Positions 4,808 to 23,354 of a stretch of DNA of 23,354 nt are shown here, in pieces. Every line of letters begins with the position of its first letter. Position 1 is the first letter of the stretch. Both the position numbers and the translations under genes were made by a program. The notes below the pieces were generated by a model. It ran no database searches and was not told where the DNA came from. It worked only from the letters and a program-made list of their open reading frames with translations. The stretch comes from a virus, in the IMG/VR virus record IMGVR_UViG_3300037175_000036, positions 1-23,354 of that record, one strand, 5' to 3'.

Positions 4808-6601
4808 TTATTTCTTGGGTTGCGCTGGCGCCGCGGGCTTCACTGGGGCTGGTTGATCTGCCGCTTTCCCGTTTCCTGTTGGGACTGTACCCGATACCGA
4901 TGCTTCACCGGTTTCTGAATCCACCACTTGATCGCGGTCTTGTTCGCTGAAGCTGATATTCGTTTCACCAGCATCCAACATGAGCCAGATTTGTTGCACG
5001 GGGAAATCAGGATGTTTCTCTGCCAGTTTTTCCGCTGCGGTCAAAAGCCTATCCACCTCATCAATGCGTTGCTCCTCGATTTCTTCCGCCATGTAGCCGT
5101 CCATTTCGCAAATGATTCCACGGGAAATGATGCAACGACCGAGAGCCTGCAACCGCATCTTAAGGTCTGTCCCTTCATCGACTGTAAATTTACCAGGGAC
5201 GGTAAAGACGTATTCGTATGGATCATACAGATTATCGTTATACGGAATATACCCGGCACGCATCGCAAATTCAGTAGCGCGGTCTGCTATCCATCTTGCC
5301 GAGCGTTCCGTGCAGCTTTGATCGTAAGCGCAAATGGTATTCGCTTGAACGGCGATTGCACGCGTTCCAGCCCGCCTCGTATCATCGGAATAAATCAGTG
5401 AGCGCGGCCACAGCGTATGAAGTATGCTCATCTCAATCCGCTGAACGAATGCTTCCTCGTTCAAGGACGGACGATTAAAGTCCAAAGCTTTCAGTGATTC
5501 TTTGTTGTTCACCGCAAGTTCGACTATGCCGGGGAAGATGTTCTCAACCGCACGATGCCAGTGCGTTGGGTTGCCTTGCGAATCCGTTGTTTCCTCGTCG
5601 TATGACGCGCGGCCTGATCGACTTGGATTTCCATCAGAACTTTCACGAGAAATTGCCAATGCGCTTGCCAGTTTGACGGCCATCTCCATTAGCTCTTGAA
5701 TGTCGTCCAAGTGCATGCACGGCATGATCGCCTCCGCAATTTCAGGTATGCCGCGAATCAAATCAAGTTGCTTGCGAGCGGAGAAATTGAAATGTATTTG
5801 TGCTTTCGGGACATCGGCGTAGGAAGGTAATCCGTCCTTGTCAAATCCGACAAGTCGATACCCCAAAGTCCGCATGTTAGAATCAACGATTATGCCGTCT
5901 ATGATTCTCTGACCATCAAAGATGCTCGCCGAATCGTTGATAATGTAAAGCCCTGGCCAACTTCCAAACGCCGTCACTGTCGCGTAAAAGTTCCATGTCT
6001 TCGGCAGTTCCAAACATTTATCAAGCCCGTTACCAACAGATACAACTCCAACTGAATGCCATCCGCCAATCAATCCCGTCGAGATGCGATCATATTTGAC
6101 GGTGTGGTATTGTCCGGTTGGATCAACTTCTTTGCCTGAGATTGGGTCTTTATGTGGCAGCCCGTCAAACCAAACTGCGTAATCAGCCTCAACCTTTCGC
6201 GTCCAGTTCATTTGACGCAGCGTAGAGCACCAATCGTTTTGATCGCTACGGCCGTTGCCGTGCATCCGGTAATCAGTGTTAAACCAATGATCGCGTTTCT
6301 TTCCCCATGCTTTATTTGTCCCGCGATATTTGATATGCCACGAATCCCCGATTGAAAATTCTCCGGCCTGAATCAACGCCGTATTGATGTTTGGTACGCC
6401 AGCCGCAATGACACGAGAGACATCTACCATCTCACGCCGCTGCCATGCCGACACAGCCTCGTAAGTCTTGGCGCGTGGTATCGGTCGCGGACGCACGCTG
6501 TCTCGGCTCTGAGACGGAGTGCGGTAAAGAGTATTGATTGACCCAGTTCGAATCGAACGGCCATATTGATCTACCAGTCCGCAATTATTATTGTCGCTCA
6601 T
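4808..6601 (-). CDS. Phage portal protein, lambda gpB family
   Basis: A 597-residue portal protein. It forms the dodecameric ring at one capsid vertex through which DNA enters and leaves. Lambda-family traits are visible: an N-terminal region with RPIPRAKTYEAVSAWQ, an early WCSTLRQMNWTRKVEADYAV block, a central HFNFSARKQLDLIRGIPEI segment matching the family's RxGQxRGVP-like motif, and a long stem helix DDIQELMEMAVKLASALAIS. The last ~60 residues are a proline- and alanine-rich tail ending in QPKK, probably disordered. Length fits the family (about 500-600 residues). It starts 6 bases after the gpW-like gene, in the canonical terminase-gpW-portal-protease order. Confidence 0.9.
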   Translation of the reverse strand: MSDNNNCGLVDQYGRSIRTGSINTLYRTPSQSRDSVRPRPIPRAKTYEAVSAWQRREMVDVSRVIAAGVPNINTALIQAGEFSIGDSWHIKYRGTNKAWGKKRDHWFNTDYRMHGNGRSDQNDWCSTLRQMNWTRKVEADYAVWFDGLPHKDPISGKEVDPTGQYHTVKYDRISTGLIGGWHSVGVVSVGNGLDKCLELPKTWNFYATVTAFGSWPGLYIINDSASIFDGQRIIDGIIVDSNMRTLGYRLVGFDKDGLPSYADVPKAQIHFNFSARKQLDLIRGIPEIAEAIMPCMHLDDIQELMEMAVKLASALAISRESSDGNPSRSGRASYDEETTDSQGNPTHWHRAVENIFPGIVELAVNNKESLKALDFNRPSLNEEAFVQRIEMSILHTLWPRSLIYSDDTRRAGTRAIAVQANTICAYDQSCTERSARWIADRATEFAMRAGYIPYNDNLYDPYEYVFTVPGKFTVDEGTDLKMRLQALGRCIISRGIICEMDGYMAEEIEEQRIDEVDRLLTAAEKLAEKHPDFPVQQIWLMLDAGETNISFSEQDRDQVVDSETGEASVSGTVPTGNGKAADQPAPVKPAAPAQPKK

Positions 6602-11939: not shown

Positions 11940-12225
11940 AGGATGCCTTACGAATCTCTTTCAATGCTGCCGATGCTATTGAGGTGGTTTCGTTGTTTCC
12001 CCGCGCACAAATGGCCTGTAGCGCGTCGATCATCGTCCGCATGTCCTGAGTGCATTGCGGACAGGATAAGCTCATGTGCATCAAGCATGCGTAATCTGCA
12101 CTCGGTTCTGGCTTGTCAGACTGATTGAGCAGGTTATAAATCACCGTCTCGGCATTCACCGATGAATCCTTGGCCAGTTCTGGTAATCTACGGGTGATCT
12201 CGGCGGCGATGGTGTGAATGCTCAT
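11926..12225 (-). CDS. Hypothetical protein with CxxC
   Basis: A 99-residue protein. A helical N-terminus (IAAEITRRLPELAKD) is followed by a middle CLMHMSLSCPQC with three cysteines and a histidine that could hold zinc, then helices MRTMIDALQAICARG and SIASAALKEIRKASF. Family unknown. Its start lies inside the last 38 bases of the cytosine methyltransferase gene, but only 6 bases after the end of the overlapping second frame. No ribosome binding site is obvious. Confidence 0.55.
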   Translation of the reverse strand: MSIHTIAAEITRRLPELAKDSSVNAETVIYNLLNQSDKPEPSADYACLMHMSLSCPQCTQDMRTMIDALQAICARGNNETTSIASAALKEIRKASFDKS

Positions 12226-12994
12226 AGTTGGCTAAAGTTTTCCATGCGAGCGATACCACATCTGGAACTTGTCCATTCCCAATGGCTGCAATGCGGTCCA
12301 TTCCATTGGCCACCCCATAAAATATTCGGCGGCCTTCGGCATAGGATTGAGCCCGTGCAGTAACACCCAAAGCGCCCAGCTTATCGAACCTTCTGTTCCA
12401 GTCTTTGCGATTTTTCTTATTCGCCCTTTGCTGTTGATTTTCGTTTGAGGTTCCAACGGCTCGATTATTTGAGTCTTTGTAATGGTGGGCATATATGAAA
12501 ATCCTTTTCCGCTGGTGATCCAAGCCGGTATCGGTCGCGCAAAACATTCCCCATTCTGCATCATACCCCATTCGGGCCAGGTCTCGCAGAACGGTTCCAA
12601 GCCCCCTGCTAGTAAGCATTGGTGAGTTTTCCACAAGAACGTATCTTGGTCCAACTTCGCAAATGATTCTCCCCATTTCACTCCACAACCCTGATCGCTC
12701 CCCTGTAATTCCGACACCTCCTCCACCTGAGTTTGCGGCGATGCTAATATCCTGGCATGGAAATCCTCCGCATATGACATCAACTTTTCCTCTCCAAGGT
12801 TTTCCATCGAACTCTTTGACATCCGCAAAAATGGGAAACCATGGAAGCAAACCGTCTTTCTGCCGAGCGTGTAAGACTTGCTGGCAATAGGGGTCAATCT
12901 CAACGGCGCAGATTGGTTGGTGTCCAAGCAGGATGTCGCCAAGTATCCCTCCTCCCGCTCCAGCGAAGAGATGCAAGGTTCTAAGTTTTTGCAT
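12188..12994 (-). CDS. DNA (cytosine-5) methyltransferase
   Basis: A 268-residue C5-cytosine DNA methyltransferase, transferring methyl from S-adenosylmethionine to cytosine, probably to shield phage DNA from host restriction. Motifs run in family order: I LHLFAGAGGG (8-16), II/III VEIDPYC (31-37), IV GGFPCQDIS with catalytic Cys80, VI VENSPML (121-127), VIII HQRKRIFI (160-167) and X IGNGQVP (238-244). Between VIII and X only about 60 residues remain, so the target-recognition domain is very short and the whole enzyme is shorter than usual (about 320-450). AAGGATATTT before ATG 12994 is a good ribosome binding site, 9 bases after the endonuclease gene's stop. Its entire length up to motif X is also open in a second same-strand frame. 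Confidence 0.87.
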   Translation of the reverse strand: MQKLRTLHLFAGAGGGILGDILLGHQPICAVEIDPYCQQVLHARQKDGLLPWFPIFADVKEFDGKPWRGKVDVICGGFPCQDISIAANSGGGGVGITGERSGLWSEMGRIICEVGPRYVLVENSPMLTSRGLGTVLRDLARMGYDAEWGMFCATDTGLDHQRKRIFIYAHHYKDSNNRAVGTSNENQQQRANKKNRKDWNRRFDKLGALGVTARAQSYAEGRRIFYGVANGMDRIAAIGNGQVPDVVSLAWKTLANYEHSHHRRRDHP

Positions 12995-13104
12995 AAATAT
13001 CCTTCATTTAATAACGATATGTATTTTTGCAGTTCCTCCATTGTGCAGTTCAATGGTTCTGGATTCGGTGATGTATTTTTGGAGCATGGCGAGGATTGTT
13101 TCAT
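12232..13104 (-). CDS. Overlapping second frame inside the methyltransferase gene (candidate overprinted protein)
   Basis: A 290-codon frame on the same strand as the methyltransferase but in another phase, overlapping it for 763 bases. It reads like a protein: EEKLMSYAEDFHARIL (105-120), KWGESFAKLDQDTFLWKTHQ (143-162), GLEPFCETWPEWGMMQNGE (168-186), EYFMGWPMEWTALQPLGMDK (260-279). From memory, phages and bacteria carry stand-alone methyltransferase-associated proteins with these same phrases (SETWPRWGMMRNGE, EWLMGWPxGWT), which argues for a real product. Against it, no start has a good ribosome binding site, whereas the methyltransferase does. The natural start may be ATG 12822 or 12807 rather than 13104, since the first ~90 codons overlap the endonuclease end and look less protein-like. 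It stops 6 bases before the next gene, a better junction than the methyltransferase gives. It may be real, or a translated-looking shadow of a real gene. Confidence 0.35.
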   Translation of the reverse strand: MKQSSPCSKNTSPNPEPLNCTMEELQKYISLLNEGYLCKNLEPCISSLEREEGYLATSCLDTNQSAPLRLTPIASKSYTLGRKTVCFHGFPFLRMSKSSMENLGEEKLMSYAEDFHARILASPQTQVEEVSELQGSDQGCGVKWGESFAKLDQDTFLWKTHQCLLAGGLEPFCETWPEWGMMQNGECFARPIPAWITSGKGFSYMPTITKTQIIEPLEPQTKINSKGRIRKIAKTGTEGSISWALWVLLHGLNPMPKAAEYFMGWPMEWTALQPLGMDKFQMWYRSHGKL

Positions 13105-13255
13105 CGTCGTTAATTAGTCCAAGCACGGAATTACATCTGGTGCATACAAATCCGCGCACTTTTTTTGTCGAGTGGCAATGGTCGCAGTTTCTCCTAAATC
13201 TTCCAGTGGAGAATGGTGTCCCGCAAGCCATACATTTTCCATTTGCCTTTTCCAT
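13004..13255 (-). CDS. Endonuclease VII-like HNH/Holliday-junction nuclease
   Basis: An 83-residue small nuclease of the recombination endonuclease VII (T4 gp49) family. Zinc pairs are Cys8/Cys11 (CMAC) and Cys38/Cys41 (CTRC). The catalytic Asp25-His26 lies in NCDHCHSTKKVRGFVC and Asn42 follows the second pair (RCNSVLG), all in the spacing of the family. It lacks the C-terminal dimerisation domain of T4 gp49, as many small phage versions do. The ATG at 13255 has no ribosome binding site. In-frame codons continue upstream without stop to about 13358, crossing the direct repeat and reading sensibly (SLRQYDKYNRNTAAIFLMEK), but contain no start. The true 5' end may have been altered by the repeat. 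It may cut branched DNA before packaging, or act as a homing nuclease that mobilised this locus. Confidence 0.75.
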   Translation of the reverse strand: MEKANGKCMACGTPFSTGRFRRNCDHCHSTKKVRGFVCTRCNSVLGLINDDETILAMLQKYITESRTIELHNGGTAKIHIVIK

Positions 13256-14377: not shown

Positions 14378-14479
14378 TTAATGTTTCTCCCGGTCACACC
14401 AAATCATGCCAACAAGTATACAGCATACAATAAAGGCGATTATCACGAGGTTGTGTGTTAATGGAGTCATAGGGATCAT
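14378..14479 (-). CDS. 33-residue single-pass membrane peptide
   Basis: The ATG at 14479 overlaps the stop of the helicase-methyltransferase gene as ATGA. The peptide begins MIPMTPLTHN, has one hydrophobic segment of about 19 residues (LVIIAFIVCCILVGMIW), and ends with charged CDREKH. That is the shape of a small inner-membrane protein with a short cytoplasmic tail. I do not recognise the family. Phage membrane micro-proteins often act on host envelope functions or lysis, but nothing here shows which. Confidence 0.5.
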   Translation of the reverse strand: MIPMTPLTHNLVIIAFIVCCILVGMIWCDREKH

Positions 14480-17205
14480 TCTTCGTTAAATTCGCTTAAG
14501 TCGCTGGATACTTTTGAGATGATTGATGACTTAATTTTGTTTTTCTCAACTTTCGTTAATTTAACCGGTGGCAATATCGGATCTGGCGCAATCGCTGGGG
14601 CCATGTCGAATAACGTCGGCATGTTCCGCTCACGTTCAGCCTGCTCGCAGTACCCGACGCCGCAGCGCCAATATTCGGTTGCCAGTTCCACTCCCCATCC
14701 GATGCGGCCGAGTAGCTGCGCGCAATACGGCACTGTAAATATTCCAGCGAACGGATCAAACACTATTTCACCTGGGTTTGAATACCTGGTAATGAGACGA
14801 TTGACAATATCGAGCTGCAGCGGGCACACATGCTTGTCCTCTTTTTGCTTTTCCTGATTCGAATTCAACGTCCGCATCCTGGTGATGTCGTCCCAGATAC
14901 CTGGGTGATTTGAGATTGGAGAGAATAACATCCAACTTGATGGCAAATATCCATTATCCTCAAGCGCGGCGGCGATCTCAACGTGTTCCTTCCATGAATA
15001 TTGATGGTTGTGGCAATAATCAAGCCATAGCCGACGTACGGCGCTCATGTTCATTCCTTGGATTATGTCCGGGTCCGGCAGCCGGTTTCCGTCTGATTTC
15101 CAGAATCCCGAAGCATCTACTTGCCAGTGTGCGCGCTTGTAAATGCTCTTGTCCTTAGTCACCGGCAGGTCTGCATAAGCATTGGAAAGGTCGCTGTGCG
15201 GCTTCCGGAATAGTAGGACGTATTCGGGCATACCGACCCCCATCTTAGTCGAATCTTTCGCGTTCTCTGACCAGCCGAGCCGGTATGTTTGCGCGTTCTC
15301 ACGCACAACGTCCGTGTCAATCGTGATCCGTCCAAGAAAGAAAAATCCGTGTTTTTCAAAACAGTCGGCTGTTTTGTCGCTGAATCTGTCCACGGTCGGC
15401 ACTCCCGTCCCATGCTGGGCGCCGAAGCGGATGCGGTCCTTGACGTGGATGCAAGCAAGTCTGCCTGGCTTTAAAACGCGCAGTAGATTCGGTATCAAAT
15501 AATCCAATTGACTAAAGAATGCCTGATTGTCGATATTGTTCCCCAAGTCGGAGTGGTTCGGACTATATTCATATTGTGTGCCGAACGGAATTGAACTCAC
15601 AATCAAATCGACGCAGCTATCTTCCCAGTTTCCGCTTTCTCCAGGTATTGGATTGCCTTGTTCATCAAATTGTGATTGTTGTGCCAGATGATTTGAGCCT
15701 TTGTCATGCCAGGAATTGTGCGTGATGTTGTGCCCAAAGTCAACAGTCTTCATTAGTTCAACAATAGCATCATTATTGATCGCCCGGAAGGTTTTGCTTT
15801 TTACTTCGATGCGCTTGCATCCGGTCTTTCTCACGATTTGCATAGTTTTTAAGTCAAGTTTGTATTCTTTAAGGAGCGCCGACATTTTGGAAACCAGTTC
15901 GTTGTGCTGTTGCCACTTAGTTTTGAGTGATGATACAACCGCATCTTCAGACTCTGTGAATATGATGTAAATATCCACTATGAACTTCTGTTGGAAACGC
16001 AGAATCCGGTGGACGGCCTGAATGAAATCATTAAACTTGTAACTACTCCCTAAAAATATTGCGCGGTGACAATGCTTTTGGAGATTACACCCGGAGCCTG
16101 AGAGTTGCGGCTTCGTTCCAAGGACAGGGAATCCGTTGTCTGAAAAGTCTACGATGATGTCTTCGCGCTTCTCTAAATCTTGAGTCCCATAAATTACCTG
16201 CACTCCCGGAATAACTTTTTGAATCACCCGGCGCTCGGCTTCTATGTCGTGCCATAAAATGAAATTGTCTCCTGGGTTGGCTTCGATTATTTCCTTAGCT
16301 TTGGCGATTCGGCTAATGATGGTTGACCTCTTTACCTCAGCTAAGTCTGCCAATCCTGCCGACTTGTCCAAAAATAATTGATGTTGCCCCCAGCTATCCA
16401 CCATCGTCCATGCCTTTTTATGATCTACAGGTACCCTCTCCCAATGAACGCGCAACCCTGGCATGTCGTATCCGTCATCGGAATATCCCAAGTCTGACGG
16501 CTTTTGCAGAAAGCAGGACCATGAAGCCAGCCAGTCCCAAAACTCACCTTCCATGCTCGGCATCAAAGTCAGGTTTCCAGCCTTCTGGCTGTCCCGTTGG
16601 AAGAATCGCGTCAGCGCCTGGCCGGTATCCATCACTCCAAGAAAACCTCCGTAGTGGATTAGTTCCTTGTGCCGGTTCGGTGACGGCGTTGCCGTGAACA
16701 CAAAACGATAATCAATCGCCGTGAACATTTTCAGGAAACTTTGATAGGTCTTACTTCCGAAGCTGCGTAAAACGCTGGCCTCGTCAAGCCCGATGCCGGT
16801 GAACTTTTCTTTCGTGACGTTTATTCCGCCGTCGCGCACGCGCTCATAATTCGTGATGATGATCTGCGTTGTGCAAGCTTCCACCTCGGCATCGGTTCGG
16901 CAATAAGTCATGGCAACACCCATCGCCGGCCCCTGGATTCGTGTAAATTCTTGGCGTACACCAAGCGGGGCAATGATAAGGTACTTCCGAGGATCATGTT
17001 CACATATCCATTTTGCAACCTGAAGGTGAATTCGTGTCTTTCCAAGACCGAAAGCGGCAAAGCAGGCCCGGCGCCCACCGCGAGCCATCCACATGGCAAT
17101 GTCGATCTGGTGCGATTTAAGGCACGGATGCGGCGGGGTAGCTGGCACGAACCCGTTAAGCTGAGCAAGTGGTTTTTTGGACTGGATAAATTCGTCGTAG
17201 GTCAT
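14476..17205 (-). CDS. Helicase-DNA methyltransferase fusion
   Basis: A 909-residue two-domain protein. The frame opens at 17229, but the ATG at 17205 has GGGAGGGA just upstream and an ATGA overlap with the previous stop, so it is the start. Residues ~1-430 are an SF2/SNF2-type helicase: P-loop FGLGKTR (52-58), DEA motif (141-143), TATP (171-174), a C-terminal lobe with SGSGCNL, and motif VI QAVHRILR (396-403). Residues ~530-870 are a beta-class amino-methyltransferase (N6-adenine or N4-cytosine): motif IV SSIPFG (537-542) comes before motif I FDPFAG (816-821) and GWGVEL (836-841), the circularly permuted order. Motif IV is SIPF instead of the usual [DNS]PP[YF]. The fusion could move along DNA while methylating it, or have lost one activity. 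Confidence 0.8.
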   Translation of the reverse strand: MTYDEFIQSKKPLAQLNGFVPATPPHPCLKSHQIDIAMWMARGGRRACFAAFGLGKTRIHLQVAKWICEHDPRKYLIIAPLGVRQEFTRIQGPAMGVAMTYCRTDAEVEACTTQIIITNYERVRDGGINVTKEKFTGIGLDEASVLRSFGSKTYQSFLKMFTAIDYRFVFTATPSPNRHKELIHYGGFLGVMDTGQALTRFFQRDSQKAGNLTLMPSMEGEFWDWLASWSCFLQKPSDLGYSDDGYDMPGLRVHWERVPVDHKKAWTMVDSWGQHQLFLDKSAGLADLAEVKRSTIISRIAKAKEIIEANPGDNFILWHDIEAERRVIQKVIPGVQVIYGTQDLEKREDIIVDFSDNGFPVLGTKPQLSGSGCNLQKHCHRAIFLGSSYKFNDFIQAVHRILRFQQKFIVDIYIIFTESEDAVVSSLKTKWQQHNELVSKMSALLKEYKLDLKTMQIVRKTGCKRIEVKSKTFRAINNDAIVELMKTVDFGHNITHNSWHDKGSNHLAQQSQFDEQGNPIPGESGNWEDSCVDLIVSSIPFGTQYEYSPNHSDLGNNIDNQAFFSQLDYLIPNLLRVLKPGRLACIHVKDRIRFGAQHGTGVPTVDRFSDKTADCFEKHGFFFLGRITIDTDVVRENAQTYRLGWSENAKDSTKMGVGMPEYVLLFRKPHSDLSNAYADLPVTKDKSIYKRAHWQVDASGFWKSDGNRLPDPDIIQGMNMSAVRRLWLDYCHNHQYSWKEHVEIAAALEDNGYLPSSWMLFSPISNHPGIWDDITRMRTLNSNQEKQKEDKHVCPLQLDIVNRLITRYSNPGEIVFDPFAGIFTVPYCAQLLGRIGWGVELATEYWRCGVGYCEQAERERNMPTLFDMAPAIAPDPILPPVKLTKVEKNKIKSSIISKVSSDLSEFNEE

Positions 17206-17549
17206 AATTCCCTCCCGCATTCGATGCATTTAATTTTTACCGGCGTTGTGCGGGTGGCGTATTCTGTGATTGGGGTGCATTTGTGCACTTCCTTCGGCAG
17301 TTCCTTAGTCCAGGTTGGTGCGGTGGACTTAATCGCGTTAATACCCTCTGCAATGGTTTTGTAAGGAGCAACCAGTTCAAGTAGCATGGCGTCTCCCCGC
17401 TCATGGCACTCGATTGTGGCTTGCAGATGATCGGTGGCCTCGGCAATGGCACTATGTATCGCCACCGTAATTTGCATTCTGTCAGTGTTTATATATCTGT
17501 CCGCCCACTTCTCCGCGATCTCCTCAATTTTTTCGGTTGTTTTGCTCAT
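17202..17549 (-). CDS. Small protein with C-terminal CxxC, paralogue of its neighbour
   Basis: A 115-residue protein. The N-terminal ~45 residues (TEKIEEIAEKWADRYINTDR, then a helix with AIHSAIAEATDHL) resemble those of the 99-residue gene directly upstream (EIKKIADKWAAHSRGV, ESIKGAISES), so the two are probably paralogues. The middle is helical. The end, KIKCIECGREL, has one CxxC pair plus an earlier Cys, possibly half a zinc site. Its stop overlaps the helicase-methyltransferase start. Function unknown. Confidence 0.6.
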   Translation of the reverse strand: MSKTTEKIEEIAEKWADRYINTDRMQITVAIHSAIAEATDHLQATIECHERGDAMLLELVAPYKTIAEGINAIKSTAPTWTKELPKEVHKCTPITEYATRTTPVKIKCIECGREL

Positions 17550-18480: not shown

Positions 18481-18509
18481 TGTGGGATATAGGTGATTTT
18501 AGTTTTCAT
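18429..18509 (-). CDS. 26-codon micro-gene coupled to the SNF2 helicase gene
   Basis: This frame encodes MKTKITYIPQWYGKYMCWKG plus six more residues, starting by ATGA overlap with the helicase stop. The aromatic-rich beginning looks like a real small-protein N-terminus, but the frame ends early. It is probably the 5' part of a gene whose continuation is in the overlapping -1 frame (18480-18310). Alternatively it is a genuine short peptide. Confidence 0.4.
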   Translation of the reverse strand: MKTKITYIPQWYGKYMCWKGRMNVQP

Positions 18510-21500
18510 TCATTGATTCCGCATTGTTTGAGAGTTTCCGGGTTTAGCTGGCGCTGATATTTGATACACAGTTTTTTCCCAAGCGCAGCGCATTTAGGCG
18601 TCAAGCTTTCCATCGCAGCTAACGATTGTCCAATCCTCGCGTCAAATTTATTGAATCCTTGAGAGTCGATCATCTTGGCACCGTCGCAATTCATCGCCAA
18701 TGACCGTAGAGCAGCGTGAATAGACTGACGCATCTCCCGCGTCATTGTCACCGCGTCCCGCTCTAATTCCGTGCGCGTGGCCAGCTTCTCTGTCTTGGGC
18801 AATAACGTGACTTCCGCTTCTATCTCGGCGCGTTCGCTGTCCAACGATTTCTCCAATATTTCTTCCTTGCGAATCCAAGTCTGGATCATGTGCGCGTCAA
18901 TCGTTCCCGGCAGGATGTAGTATTTTACCGTTACGTTGTCCTTTTGGCCGATCCGATGACAGTTGTGCGCCGTTGCAAATCCTGTGGTAAAAGATTCATC
19001 GCCTTCGACCGTGATGTCATATACCCGCACTTTGTCACAATAGGTTTCTACGGAACGGACTGGCCGGTAAATAAAATCATCGTCCTGATCGTTCAGCCGC
19101 GTGCTGGCAGGATTTCCAAATTTGGTATAACCACCAATCCAGTGATATCCGCTTGTTTCGCTACCTCGCCGCATAGTTGGTATGAAACCAGCGCGAATAG
19201 CCAGCAAGCACGCTTGGTAGCAAAGTGTCTGGCTACAGCTTACCCATTCCACTTGCCGGTTGCGTTGATACCCATCCCCGTCCGTGTATCCGCGCAGAAA
19301 AATAGCGGCTTGGTCAGGCGGGAGATTCATAATCTCCGATGGAAGAGAGAAGTTTTCTGAACCAATCCCAAACCAGCCTTGGAACCATTTAGCAAGCTCT
19401 CCAGAATAGGCGCGCATCTCAATTCCTTTGCCCCCTTCCTTCCTATAGATGGTGGATTTGATACCCAATGCAAGCAGCTTTTTAGATATTCGGATTAACA
19501 CGTTTTCCTCTTTTTCGTGACCACTGAACGATACAAAATATCCCTTACCCGGCTTCATTGAGCTGAAGCCTTCAGCAGCATACCACCCGAACAAGTAAAG
19601 CCAGTCATCATCAATTTTTATTTCATCCGGAAGCCTGACGTAGTGCGGGCTGGTCTGACGCGGTTTCGGTGGACGATTTCCAGACTCTATCAATGCCCGA
19701 TAATGTACTCGACACAGCCCACGACCCTCTACAGGATTCCCACAGTGGCACTTTTGTTTTGAACGCGGAACCAATTGCGAATCATACATTCTCCATTCTT
19801 TTTTGAACGTGACACTTTCAAGCCTGCACCATGCTTTTATTTTTGGGAATGCCATTGAATCAGTTGGCAATATGCTGTGCGCCTCAATCCATTCCGTTTT
19901 GTCGCCGCGCTTTACCATAAGCCTATGATCGTGAGTGCATTCAATTGAATCGTTCCATCCGACGTAATGAATTTTTGTCATGCATCCCCGATGCTCGTGA
20001 CTCCATGCGTCTGTGACCTTTCGGTAATTACCGGAGTGCGTCAAAACTACGTCGCCAATCTTGATGTTCTGGATAGTGGTTAATGCCATGCTGCCATGAT
20101 AAACAGAGTTAAGACACCAAACAAGAGTATTTTTGACAAAACATCGATCCGAGCACTGAGCCATTTTGCTGGCCGTCCAATCGTTTTCAAAAAATATGAC
20201 GTTAGAACTTGCCGTTAAAGTTATGCCTTCGCCTGTCGCGCGAATTGATCCGAAGAATAATCTGCAACTTGGATCGTTCTGAAACTGTTGAACAAATTTA
20301 TCACGGTCGAGTTGTGGCGTGTCCCCCGTCACCAAAACACTTTCATTTGGAAAGGAAGCATGAGCCATTCTCAGACAATCCGTGTGATGCGCGAATACCA
20401 CAATCTTGGATACTTCTTCCAGTTCCTCTTTTAGCATCTCAATCATTGCTGGTGTCTTTGCAAGCGCCGTGGCGTGGCGCACCTTAGCGATCTCCGTAAA
20501 TATCAACGCTGTCTTGTTGCGCAGCGCCGACACAGCGTTTTTAAATGCGTCTTGATCTTCGCTTGCCTTTGCAAGTTCAAGTGTCACCTCGGCATCCTCA
20601 AGCTCAGGTTGATTCTGTTTCCAAGCGCGTTGCTCCTGGTTAATGACGTGCTCAAGTCCTTCCGTTTCCATCTCAACAACAATCCGTTGTTTTGGTGGTA
20701 GCTCACTAAGCACGTCACATTTCAATCGGCGGATAAGACATGTCCCGCGCAACACCCTTCCCAATTCTTCGGAATTTGTTGCACCATCGGCTTGCCATCC
20801 ATAGCCGTTTGAGCATGCGCCACAGTACCTTTTCTCGAAAGCTGATTTGCTGCTAAATAATGTCGGAGCGATGTAGCTAACGATTGGCCAAAGCTCGGCC
20901 GGTTTATTCTCAAATGGTGTCCCGCTCAAGAACAACTTCCTAACCGCCGGAATTCCGCTGCTCGGCAACATTCCTTTCGCTGATTCTTTGCGAGTTGGTT
21001 TGTACCCGACAATCGCTTTTGTCTGGCGTGCTTTCGCTGATTTTGCGCGATGACATTCATCGACGATAAGCAAGTCCCAATAATTTGTAGATGCTATCGG
21101 AAATTTATGCACCACGTTATAATGGATAATTACGATGTCAGTCTTCGGAAAGAAATTAGCATTCGCGTGACCGATGCTCATTTTCCGAATCAGCCATTTT
21201 CGTAATTCACGTTCCCAATTGGCTTTCAAAGTCATTGGGCAAATCAGTAACACCCTGCTAATTTCTGGTATCGAATTTATTACCCCGATGGCCTGAATAG
21301 ACTTTCCGGTTCCCATTTCATCACCAAGTAAAACACCGTTATTCTTGAATGCCCGCAAGATATAATTCACTCCTGCTTTTTGAAACGGACGAAACTCGCA
21401 ACCATCAGGACAAGGTATTTCGATGTCGGCATCAAGTGATCGGCTCAGTTCAATTCGTTCATTGCGTTCCTGGATAATCTCTGGCGCAAGCTTCTGCCAC

Positions 21501-21709
21501 CAGCACAGCCGCCAGTCGTCGGTGTACGGGTCTTTGGACATAGACAAGCCGAGTGGTTTCAAATCGTTCTTGCGCTCACCCCAGACTTCCCAAATTGGAT
21601 CATCATTCTCACGCGGCTTGTACGTGCGAAGAATGCGCGGCCCGTTCCGGGTGTTTACCTCTTTAGGTTTTGTCCAACGAACGAGAGATTCTATTTCGGT
21701 AGTAGTCAT
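18506..21709 (-). CDS. SNF2-family DNA helicase/translocase with intein
   Basis: A 1067-residue precursor, about 673 residues after intein removal. The SF2/SNF2 ATPase has P-loop GDEMGTGKS (129-137), DECH box (217-220), motif III SGTPFEN (262-268), C-terminal lobe motif V TGEGITLTAS (492-501), and motif VI split by the intein: QCSDR (518-522) before it and CHRIGQ (917-922) after it. Without splicing, the arginine finger would be separated from the rest of its motif and the enzyme should be inactive. The N-terminal ~100 residues hold a basic/tryptophan-rich region (WGERKNDLKP, WRLCWWQK). The C-terminal ~140 residues are helical. Phage SNF2 helicases may act in replication or recombination. It begins by ATGA overlap with the winged-helix gene. 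Confidence 0.9.
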   Translation of the reverse strand: MTTTEIESLVRWTKPKEVNTRNGPRILRTYKPRENDDPIWEVWGERKNDLKPLGLSMSKDPYTDDWRLCWWQKLAPEIIQERNERIELSRSLDADIEIPCPDGCEFRPFQKAGVNYILRAFKNNGVLLGDEMGTGKSIQAIGVINSIPEISRVLLICPMTLKANWERELRKWLIRKMSIGHANANFFPKTDIVIIHYNVVHKFPIASTNYWDLLIVDECHRAKSAKARQTKAIVGYKPTRKESAKGMLPSSGIPAVRKLFLSGTPFENKPAELWPIVSYIAPTLFSSKSAFEKRYCGACSNGYGWQADGATNSEELGRVLRGTCLIRRLKCDVLSELPPKQRIVVEMETEGLEHVINQEQRAWKQNQPELEDAEVTLELAKASEDQDAFKNAVSALRNKTALIFTEIAKVRHATALAKTPAMIEMLKEELEEVSKIVVFAHHTDCLRMAHASFPNESVLVTGDTPQLDRDKFVQQFQNDPSCRLFFGSIRATGEGITLTASSNVIFFENDWTASKMAQCSDRCFVKNTLVWCLNSVYHGSMALTTIQNIKIGDVVLTHSGNYRKVTDAWSHEHRGCMTKIHYVGWNDSIECTHDHRLMVKRGDKTEWIEAHSILPTDSMAFPKIKAWCRLESVTFKKEWRMYDSQLVPRSKQKCHCGNPVEGRGLCRVHYRALIESGNRPPKPRQTSPHYVRLPDEIKIDDDWLYLFGWYAAEGFSSMKPGKGYFVSFSGHEKEENVLIRISKKLLALGIKSTIYRKEGGKGIEMRAYSGELAKWFQGWFGIGSENFSLPSEIMNLPPDQAAIFLRGYTDGDGYQRNRQVEWVSCSQTLCYQACLLAIRAGFIPTMRRGSETSGYHWIGGYTKFGNPASTRLNDQDDDFIYRPVRSVETYCDKVRVYDITVEGDESFTTGFATAHNCHRIGQKDNVTVKYYILPGTIDAHMIQTWIRKEEILEKSLDSERAEIEAEVTLLPKTEKLATRTELERDAVTMTREMRQSIHAALRSLAMNCDGAKMIDSQGFNKFDARIGQSLAAMESLTPKCAALGKKLCIKYQRQLNPETLKQCGINE
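18962..20143 (-). other. Intein with LAGLIDADG homing endonuclease (394 residues)
   Basis: Residues 523-916 of the SNF2 precursor. All splicing residues are present: Cys523 (block A, CFVKNTLVWC), block B THDH (592-595), block F VRVYDITVEGDESF, and block G TAHN with His915-Asn916, followed by Cys917 as the +1 nucleophile. The homing domain has two DOD motifs, LFGWYAAEG (706-714) with Glu713 and RGYTDGDG (806-813) with Asp810, so it looks active. Between blocks B and C lies an extra Cys/His cluster, CHCGNPVEGRGLCRVH (C654, C656, C666, H669), resembling a small zinc finger found in phage HNH proteins. The intein sits in the most conserved motif of the helicase, a usual target site. Confidence 0.92.
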
Positions 21710-22113: not shown

Positions 22114-22279
22114 GATTCCGTTTCGTCTTGGCCAGCTTTTCAAGTTGTTGTCTGGCTGTGGCCGCGATATTTAATTCCCTCTCGTGTTGTTGCGTCGGCG
22201 CATCCAGATATTCCGCTGCTGCTATTTTCTCATCTTGAGCAGCCGTTTCCAAACATTGCATGAGTGACCATGTTTTCAT
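22103..22279 (-). CDS. Small helical protein
   Basis: A 58-residue protein starting MKTWSLMQCLETAAQDEKIA, with the ATG at 22279 overlapping the DUF6745 gene's stop as ATGA and GGAATC upstream. It is alanine- and glutamine-rich and almost entirely helical (HERELNIAATARQQLEKLAK), so it may form a coiled coil or a helical hairpin. It overlaps the next gene by 11 bases. Family unknown. Confidence 0.55.
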   Translation of the reverse strand: MKTWSLMQCLETAAQDEKIAAAEYLDAPTQQHERELNIAATARQQLEKLAKTKRNHED

Positions 22280-23354
22280 GATTCCAAGGCCGGTTGATAT
22301 TCCGCTTCCGTCTTCCCGAAAGTCCAAGCAACCCCCTCTTTTGCTCGCGTAATATTCGGAGGCACACGGAGAAAATAATCCTTAAATTCCCCGGTGGTTT
22401 CCGGCGTCGAATTAACAACTTTTACCATGACAATGGGCTCGTCATCTTTTACGTCCTTGCGGTACAACACTCCGAAATCATCCTCATGAACTTTCTGTGC
22501 ATGAGCATCCAATAAATATCGATCGAGACCATATCTTTCGATCATGACACGCCGCACTTCGGCATTTGATTCAGCTTCGATACGTTCGACCGTGATATGA
22601 TTCGGATATTCAATGACATAGGCTGGTACACGAACCCCGTGAACCGCATATAATGATGATCCATCACGCCACTTACAAAACGGGCCATTGTCGCAATGCG
22701 GTCTGTTTTGATCGTCAACTAAAAGCACCTCCGGCCTATCGGACACTATGCAGAAATCAGGAGACATAATCCTCGGGCCTCCGTGAATACATGCCTTTTC
22801 ATAGTGAATATAATTCTCGTATTCATTCAATCCCAACTTGCAAACGTCTTTAAAGAACGATAGGTAAGCATTCCATCCTGACCACTGATTTCCACCGTCC
22901 CACATATTCCAATTCGAAATAGATTCCGCACATGCAATTCCAAATTGATATTCATTTCCTAAGAACTCTTTAGAAATCTCTATAAACGATTGTTTCGGAA
23001 GCGATACAAACCATTTTAAGTCGTCGCGGGTGGCGTCGAGGGTGGCGTCGAGGGTGGCGGCGTGGGTGGCGTCGCGGGTGGCGTCGTGGGTGGCGGCGCT
23101 GGTGGCGTCGATGGTGGCGTCGTGGGTGGCGGCGAGGGTGGCGTCGCTGGTGGCGGCGCGGGTGGCGTCGCTGGTGGCGTCGCGGGTGGCGTCGCTGGTG
23201 GCGTCGCGGGTGGCGGCGCTGGTGGCGTCGCTGGTGGCGTCGCGGGTGGCGGCGCGGGTGGCGTCGCGGGTGGCGGCGCGGGTGGCGGCGAGGGTGGCGG
23301 CGAGGGTGGCGTCGATGGTGGCGGCGCGGGTGGCGGTGCGGGTGGCGTCGCTGG
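22276..23354 (-). CDS. DUF6745-type protein with tetrapeptide repeats (5' part beyond window)
   Basis: The frame is open through the right edge of the window, so only the C-terminal ~358 residues are visible and no start lies in view. Residues from the edge to about 23029 are 27 repeats of four residues, [R/S/L/H/I][D/A/T]AT. A linker DDLKWFVSLPKQSF follows. The C-terminal domain has the phrases of DUF6745: WSGWNAYLSFFKDV, HGGPRIMSPDFCIVSDRPEV, NRPHCDNGPFCKWRDGSSLY, AVHGVRVPAYVI, AEVRRVMIERYGLDRYL, VKVVNSTPETTGE and YFLRVPPNITRAKEGVAWTF. DUF6745 has no known function that I can cite. An ATG at 22905 exists but would cut the conserved domain, so it is not the start. Confidence 0.8.
   Translation of the reverse strand, partial: SDATRTATRAATIDATLAATLAATRAATRDATRAATRDATSDATSAATRDATSDATRDATSDATRAATSDATLAATHDATIDATSAATHDATRDATHAATLDATLDATRDDLKWFVSLPKQSFIEISKEFLGNEYQFGIACAESISNWNMWDGGNQWSGWNAYLSFFKDVCKLGLNEYENYIHYEKACIHGGPRIMSPDFCIVSDRPEVLLVDDQNRPHCDNGPFCKWRDGSSLYAVHGVRVPAYVIEYPNHITVERIEAESNAEVRRVMIERYGLDRYLLDAHAQKVHEDDFGVLYRKDVKDDEPIVMVKVVNSTPETTGEFKDYFLRVPPNITRAKEGVAWTFGKTEAEYQPALES
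23029..23352 (-). repeat. Tandem array of 27 x 12-bp repeats inside the DUF6745 gene
   Basis: There are 27 perfect-length 12-bp units GGTGGCGNCGNN (plus strand), without spacers, continuing beyond the window. On the coding strand each unit is NNC-G[A/C]C-GCC-ACC, giving x-[D/A]-A-T; one unit has ACC and gives T. Only the first codon (Arg, Ser, Leu, His or Ile, always ending in C) and the second codon change. Codons 3 and 4 never vary. Local GC is far above the rest of the window. Confidence 0.95.

Follow-up and report, generated by a model that had tools for sequence, protein, structure and literature searches.

A phage gene that joins a DNA motor to a DNA methyltransferase raises two questions: whether the methyltransferase still works when its catalytic motif departs from the familiar form, and what a virus would gain from holding both activities in one chain. 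Such a gene lies at 14476–17205 on the minus strand of IMG/VR virus record IMGVR_UViG_3300037175_000036, positions 1–23,354 of which make up the stretch of DNA analysed here (the window, 23,354 nucleotides). Its phage origin, taken for granted in an earlier sequence-only reading, agrees with the record's place in IMG/VR and with matches in the window to gpA-type terminase, portal and major head families. With modest confidence, we favour a working phage DNA-modification enzyme, in which a SNF2-type translocase and a beta-class amino-methyltransferase, delivered by the sliding clamp, would mark phage DNA against restriction; this view draws on sequence comparison and structural models.

A helicase–methyltransferase chain with its own catalytic motif

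The gene encodes 909 residues plus a stop codon, as established by translation and by Pfam and PHROG matches. An upstream ATG at 17229 also gives an open reading frame (ORF); 17205 was used as the start because the N-termini of relatives agree with it. Residues 1–450 (15856–17205; all features of the gene are on the minus strand) form a two-lobe translocase of the SNF2 type, within helicase superfamily 2 (SF2), identified by Pfam (SNF2-rel_dom, residues 52–189, E = 2.9e-6) and by structural modelling. The elements of a SNF2 two-lobe core, namely Walker A, DEAx and motif VI, are all present: Walker A reads FGLGKT (residues 52–57, 17035–17052; FGLGKT/S in 152 of 166 relatives), LDEAS and ATPSPN follow as further helicase motifs, and motif VI reads QAVHRILRF (residues 396–404, 15994–16020), as recognised from the sequence and the relatives' tally. 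The methyltransferase domain occupies residues 527–868 (14602–15627), with a match to N6_N4_Mtase (PF01555) over residues 532–846 (E = 1.6e-18; 67.9 bits against a cut-off of 26.7). Furthermore, the phrog_16 profile, named 'DNA helicase', spans residues 24–873 (E = 3.2e-100), which makes the protein a full-length member of that family. Within the methyltransferase, SSIPF (residues 537–541, 15583–15597; core S538-I-P-F541) is followed by H792xCPLQ, then by DPFAG (residues 817–821, 14743–14757) and E840; we take these three motifs to be IV, X and I, respectively. Motif IV thus precedes motif I, which is the beta-class order. Translation, Pfam, phrog_16 and motif order together confirm the single-chain SF2 helicase and beta-class methyltransferase that the sequence-only reading had described, and its catalytic motif was correctly read as SSIPF rather than [DNS]PP[YF].

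Structural models agree with this layout. In the whole-chain model (mean predicted local distance difference test score, pLDDT, 76.0; 52 alignment rows), residues 22–445 match the INO80 ATPase (Z 29.4, root-mean-square deviation 3.1, 380 residues), and SNF2 chains and further SF2 helicases make up most of the fold matches, in which entries for TTHA0409 first occur at rank 33. The methyltransferase part, modelled separately with AlphaFold (mean pLDDT 72.8, 85 alignment rows), matches S-adenosylmethionine-bound TTHA0409 (Z 23.4, root-mean-square deviation 2.5, 224 residues), CcrM with DNA (22.8), M.PvuII (21.8) and M.BceJIV with DNA (21.4). These solved beta-class amino-methyltransferases share the catalytic fold of the window enzyme at Z 21–23; their chains lack a helicase, and the motif of TTHA0409 is SPPY, with CcrM, M.BceJIV and M.PvuII presumably carrying the PP form as well. 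Both N6-adenine and N4-cytosine enzymes are among these matches, so that the product may be either N6-methyladenine or N4-methylcytosine. Residues 621–660, within the supposed recognition region, are the most conserved of the domain's 20-residue blocks (mean majority 0.87 and 0.90, in this family alone), which weakly suggests a fixed sequence specificity.

The fusion itself is ordinary. By tblastn, the window protein was matched in 337 of 50,697 phage records, with at least 80% query coverage in one place in 224; of 72,556 plasmid records, 12 gave a match. Alignment-based scans found a relative encoded in at least 567 viral and 487 genome stretches. Depositor labels include 'DNA helicase/methylase', 'DNA methylase N-4' and 'helicase', and the family is known as "DNA helicase/methylase". 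The homologue sets used below consist of the 80 best matches of each scan, with the totals of the viral and sister-clade scans being lower bounds. With the window protein's own two copies (L001, L002) set aside, 174 loci were examined, 166 of which contain a full-length single ORF. Left out of the 166 were a weaker match (L015), five loci with helicase and methyltransferase on separate ORFs (L009, L010, L012, L013, L014), and two interrupted genes. In one of the latter (L037), a lone in-frame stop at about 6351–6353 divides the two halves, possibly a natural split, recoding or a sequencing error. The other, in Mycobacterium phage Pacc40 (L016, 950–4975), matches in three pieces and is 4026 nucleotides long, against about 2500 in Saal, and probably contains an intein; its annotation as an anaerobic ribonucleoside reductase is probably misleading. 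Synechococcus S-CBS3 (L011) is counted within the 166 though it belongs to a sister clade, and is dropped where n = 165. Some loci represent one contig present in two collections, which was handled by thinned counts (99 and 73). At motif IV, the viral scan alignment contained no part of the motif, the genome-contig scan pattern included its PF and excluded the preceding residue, and the sister scan pattern held PF.

Domain order and full-length match are shared across phrog_16, with members in Arthrobacter, Mycobacterium, Pseudomonas, Paracoccus and Flavobacterium phages. Six aligned members from named phages share SIPF, a motif I of the type DPFGG[LI]xT[VT]P and a PTLFD-type tail (P[TSD]LF in 6/6). 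The window protein is only 44–50% identical to these six and differs in a private insert of about 40 residues (about residues 483–522, 15640–15759, located by alignment) and a 42-residue extension past the tail motif. Among the 166 relatives, the insert before motif IV is 15 residues long in one and at most two in the others.

The usual form of motif IV is [DNS]PP[YFW], and that of motif I is DPFxGSGTT. The window protein departs from both. When motif IV was aligned across homologous fusions, as the sequence-only reading had advised, S, P and F were each found in all 166 full-length relatives, and the middle residue was I 157 times, V six times, W twice and P once; thinning to below 80% identity (n = 99) gave I 91, V 5, W 2 and P 1. 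The lone P, the only intact PP, is that of S-CBS3, and I, V or W stands at this position in all 165 relatives of the window's own clade. The sister clade (Synechococcus S-CBS3, Flavobacterium FCV-1 and, as split genes, Mycobacterium Ramsey and Jarcob and Gordonia GMA1) shares the SNF2 helicase and the beta-class methyltransferase but differs in both motifs. Its motif IV, across 80 loci, reads SPPF in 74, SIPF in 2, APPF in 1 and is unparsed in 3, with SPPF in 6/6 separately aligned methyltransferases (two of them 99% alike). Motif I is DPFAGIFTVP in the window and DPFGGLxTVP or a close variant in most of its clade, and mostly [ST]PFxG[IV]GSE in aligned sister members. The domains are fused in 29 of the 80 sister loci, and a separate helicase gene lies less than 1.5 kb away in 40. 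In a tree of methyltransferase domains (86 thinned rows), a 100/100 branch sets off the window clade, within which the rows used show four origins of V and W, and I was gained separately, once, by two tree neighbours (L238 and L239) inside the P-bearing sister clade. These tallies and the tree identify SIPF as a subfamily trait, the former of the two options that the sequence-only reading had left for the I-for-P change. No SIPF-type phage methyltransferase was found in the open-licence literature. Among the rRNA adenine dimethylases, KsgA and Erm function with N[LI]P[YF], which speaks against a dead enzyme here; a literature search on that motif gave nothing.

Selection has held the methyltransferase as tightly as the helicase. 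Over 25 non-overlapping pairs, the ratio of nonsynonymous to synonymous substitution rates (dN/dS) had a median of 0.066 in the helicase, against 0.067 in the methyltransferase, values that are rough since many dS values exceed 1. Columns at least 95% uniform number 107 of 342 in the methyltransferase and 123 of 446 in the helicase, and the S, P and F of motif IV, D817, F819, G821 and E840 are each at least 99% uniform.

The C-terminal tail and the sliding clamp

With the family known and its odd motif explained, the new part of the finding is the tail. Past the last methyltransferase helix, the window protein continues as NMPTLFDMA, modelled with low confidence (pLDDT 56 for residues 861–870 and 46 for 871–880). 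By sequence comparison, MPTLFD (residues 862–867, 14605–14622) resembles a clamp-binding motif that lacks its glutamine. Within the window clade, P[TS][LMI]FD occurs in the last 45 residues of 140/165 proteins and in none of 1484 other genes of the same loci, and the clade's xP[TS]LFD form mostly lacks the key Gln. A C-terminal bacterial clamp-binding motif QL(S/D)LF is described in PMC9690074, and QLxLF, C-terminal in transposases, in PMC4549789.

In the sister clade, methyltransferase tails are frequently canonical pentapeptides of this kind. Qxx[LMI]F lies within the last 45 residues of 31/73 non-redundant sister methyltransferases (35/80 loci before thinning) and of 5/562 other genes of the loci; shuffled sister tails gave it 1.3 times on average and at most 8 times. 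The stricter form, with L alone at position 4, occurs in 21/73 against 4/562. The instances are diverse (QMSLF, QTTLF, QLNIF, QADMF and QPSLF among them): 35 proteins hold 27 different pentapeptides, and while the search pattern itself fixes positions 1 and 5 and limits position 4, it leaves position 3 free, where D, S or T predominate (20/27). The sister pentapeptides fit the QL(S/D)LF motif of PMC9690074. In addition, the motif is absent from the separate helicases (0/52) and nearly so from neighbouring C5-methyltransferases (1/52). The tail motif also sits at about the same offset in both clades: from E840 to F866, the spacing is 26 residues in 163/163 window-clade rows that have both residues, and from the conserved Glu of the sister proteins it is 26, the mode, in 21/35 and 25–27 in 28/35. 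We therefore take the two tails to be the same feature, as judged from the alignments.

From these comparisons, it is possible, though we put it forward tentatively, that a phage methyltransferase-translocase docks on the bacterial clamp by its C-terminal tail and methylates DNA leaving the fork, the clamp contact having shifted from Q-x-[ST]-L-F to x-P-[ST]-L-F-D in the window clade. A parallel is found in eukaryotes in DNMT1 and PCNA, which we take to be unrelated by descent to the phage protein. There, a sliding-clamp motif recruits the methyltransferase to new DNA, which is the mode proposed here; DNMT1 is a C5-methyltransferase acting with PCNA, and its recruitment is described in PMC9690074, whereas that of the phage protein is only predicted. 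In the CcrM paper PMC3973325, the clamp is named in the reference list only.

Several observations weigh against clamp delivery and, more broadly, against the favoured reading. The window protein departs from the strict clamp consensus: in MPTLF, the L and F fit and M replaces Q. A Q at position 1 was found in only 4/165 window-clade relatives (L035, L118, L093, L173). With the glutamine absent from the window protein and rare in its clade, predicted clamp binding is weakest exactly there. Moreover, the window motif does not end the chain but precedes the 42-residue extension, and 42/73 sister methyltransferases lack Qxx[LMI]F. The tail comparisons were made with other genes of the same loci rather than with an unrelated phage amino-methyltransferase family. 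The restriction to 80 best matches per scan, the saturated dS values and, below, neighbour counts made without control loci belong on the same side. Linkage to a phage clamp gene (DnaN) was also considered as proof of clamp binding: the Q form occurs in 3/17 DnaN-bearing window-clade loci against 1/148 others (p = 0.0035, among related sequences), which is suggestive, and in 3/7 DnaN-bearing sister loci against 32/73 others (p = 1.0), which counts against it. Because the sister clade shows no such association, this linkage was not used.

Genomic setting and competing explanations

Neighbours were counted with profiles built in this analysis around 167 full-length genes (the 166 and the window's), with family names taken from sequences. 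A C5-methyltransferase gene is present in 55/167 loci, with 28 hits separated by a gap of less than 150 bp, and other neighbours include DnaB (21), RusA (20), DnaN (17), SSB (14) and VRR-NUC (12), all counted without control loci. The window's own C5-methyltransferase is excluded from the 55, having been displaced in the gene list by a longer overlapping ORF. Clamp, SSB, exonuclease or RecT genes lie nearby in several of 14 named-phage regions. In Paracoccus phage Pthi1, a clamp gene directly precedes the helicase–methyltransferase gene, and a primase and a topoisomerase-primase are encoded at a distance of about 4 kb; in Arthrobacter Gorpy, the clamp is encoded two genes downstream. The gene therefore sits in a replication and modification setting.

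Taken with the tail, these replication neighbours indicate that the protein probably serves self-modification of phage DNA coupled to replication. In the favoured reading, an ATP-driven SNF2-type translocase on double-stranded DNA would carry the beta-class amino-methyltransferase, more probably an N6-adenine than an N4-cytosine enzyme, whose catalytic motif IV takes the form S-[I/V/W]-P-F in this clade. The methyltransferase would methylate phage DNA while the motor translocates, this methylation would shield the DNA from host restriction, and the xP[TS]LFD tail would deliver the enzyme to newly replicated DNA through a host or phage sliding clamp. Anti-restriction during translocation is plausible by analogy, having been proposed for other phage helicase–methyltransferase proteins in PMC5512222.

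The same neighbourhood would also suit a protein whose helicase half is its main function, in replication, recombination or fork remodelling, with the methyltransferase mainly setting marks on phage DNA that serve timing, packaging or gene control rather than protection from restriction. DnaN, DnaB, RusA and SSB genes, the position in Pthi1 right after the clamp gene, and the sister loci in which the helicase is either a separate gene within 1.5 kb or fused all speak for this alternative, which we regard as unlikely but worth serious attention. Against it, the methyltransferase is as constrained as the helicase, the tail motif rides on the methyltransferase and on none of the 52 separate helicases, and the second, C5-type methyltransferase in a third of the loci (55/167) suggests a modification theme. 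A methyltransferase that is instead catalytically dead and retained as a DNA-binding scaffold could account for motifs IV and I both straying from textbook forms. Yet the invariant S, P and F, the near-invariant motif I and E840, and a median dN/dS that matches the helicase value make a catalytically dead METHYLTRANSFERASE very unlikely as judged from the alignments, and the sister clade shows one further, separate P-to-I change; the loss of function that the sequence-only reading had held open is thus not upheld.

A virion protein of the phage P1 DarB kind, which protects entering DNA from type I restriction by modifying or shielding it in cis, would likewise combine the two activities. PMC5512222 describes phage polyvalent proteins that include a 'methylase-helicase dyad' of the P1 DarB type involved in anti-restriction, proposes that the SNF2 motor and methyltransferase act jointly on injected DNA, and notes SNF2 ATPases coupled to adenine methyltransferases elsewhere in phages. 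Like the window protein, DarB unites a SNF2 ATPase and an amino-methyltransferase in one phage protein; as given there, however, the DarB type has a gamma-class NPP[YF] methyltransferase N-terminal to the helicase, an N-terminal LPD36 and a place in the virion (PMC5512222). Membership of the DarB type was rejected, since the window helicase is N-terminal and its methyltransferase has the beta order with SIPF; the two may work alike, but with methyltransferase class and domain order differing, and the gene often near replication genes, a DarB-like role is improbable. We give a very slim chance to the remaining alternative, a phage- or prophage-borne defence or exclusion system resembling type III restriction–modification, BREX or DISARM. 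It could appeal to model matches with type III enzymes (EcoP15I chain, Z 19.1; Mbo45V Mod, Z 18.5) and to a second SNF2 gene at 18506–21709, which Pfam matches to ResIII (E = 4.5e-9, weaker than the overlying SNF2 match) and PADLOC to ZorD (best, 1.5e-38), DpdE and DrmD (3.6e-19). Type III restriction–modification joins a Mod methyltransferase to a Res helicase-nuclease. That gene nevertheless falls far below NCBIfam cut-offs (for example, DrmD_b at 57.5 bits against 950), and in the 10 window proteins scanned, Pfam detected no nuclease family in the helicase–methyltransferase or in the second SNF2 protein, although a divergent nuclease could escape detection. In a PADLOC scan of 4 window proteins, the helicase–methyltransferase itself gave only generic matches, to type II or orphan methyltransferases and ZorD/DpdE helicases, and none to PglX/PglZ or DrmA/B/D/MI, the genes whose joint presence marks BREX and DISARM. 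The kinship with BREX or DISARM evoked by the sequence-only reading is thus not supported by these scans.

Other genes of the window and meaning of the finding

The second SNF2 helicase gene (18506–21709, minus strand) carries an apparent intein of 394 residues (residues 523–916), which begins CFVKNTLVWC, ends GFATAHN and has LAGLIDADG_3 and Intein_splicing Pfam matches; it sits just ahead of CHRIGQ, part of helicase motif VI. The window's small C5-cytosine methyltransferase gene (12188–12994, minus strand; phrog_363, E = 1.5e-60) overlaps by about 760 nucleotides, in another frame of the same strand, a gene for a 290-residue protein (12232–13104; phrog_1008, E = 7.4e-13). In 11/11 relatives (L177–L182, L185–L189), neither frame is interrupted and the two proteins are conserved; these relatives were chosen by match to the 290-residue protein, with identities of 38–54% for the C5-methyltransferase and 29–37% for the other. 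In synonymous-codon shuffles of seven sequences, the second frame was equally open in 0 to 45 of 2000, and the two genes seem to form a conserved pair with dual coding over nearly their whole length. Between the methyltransferase genes lies an endonuclease VII-like ORF of 83 residues (13004–13255, minus strand). Inside the ORF at 22276–23354 (minus strand), a 12-bp tandem repeat of 27.5 copies (23022–23351) encodes a DATxAAT-type repeat before a DUF6745 domain.

For beta-class enzymes at large, the window clade suggests that I, V or W can be accommodated at the second position of motif IV, and scans requiring PP would therefore miss or mis-call such enzymes. A search of titles and abstracts in the open-licence literature found no account of a phage methyltransferase that docks on the bacterial clamp; to our knowledge, clamp tethering would, if true, be a new route of phage self-modification, and the clamp-docked methyltransferase a prokaryotic counterpart of DNMT1–PCNA. 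Phage DNA is open to restriction just after every replication round, and a methyltransferase tethered to the clamp, if it indeed acts this way, would close that gap.

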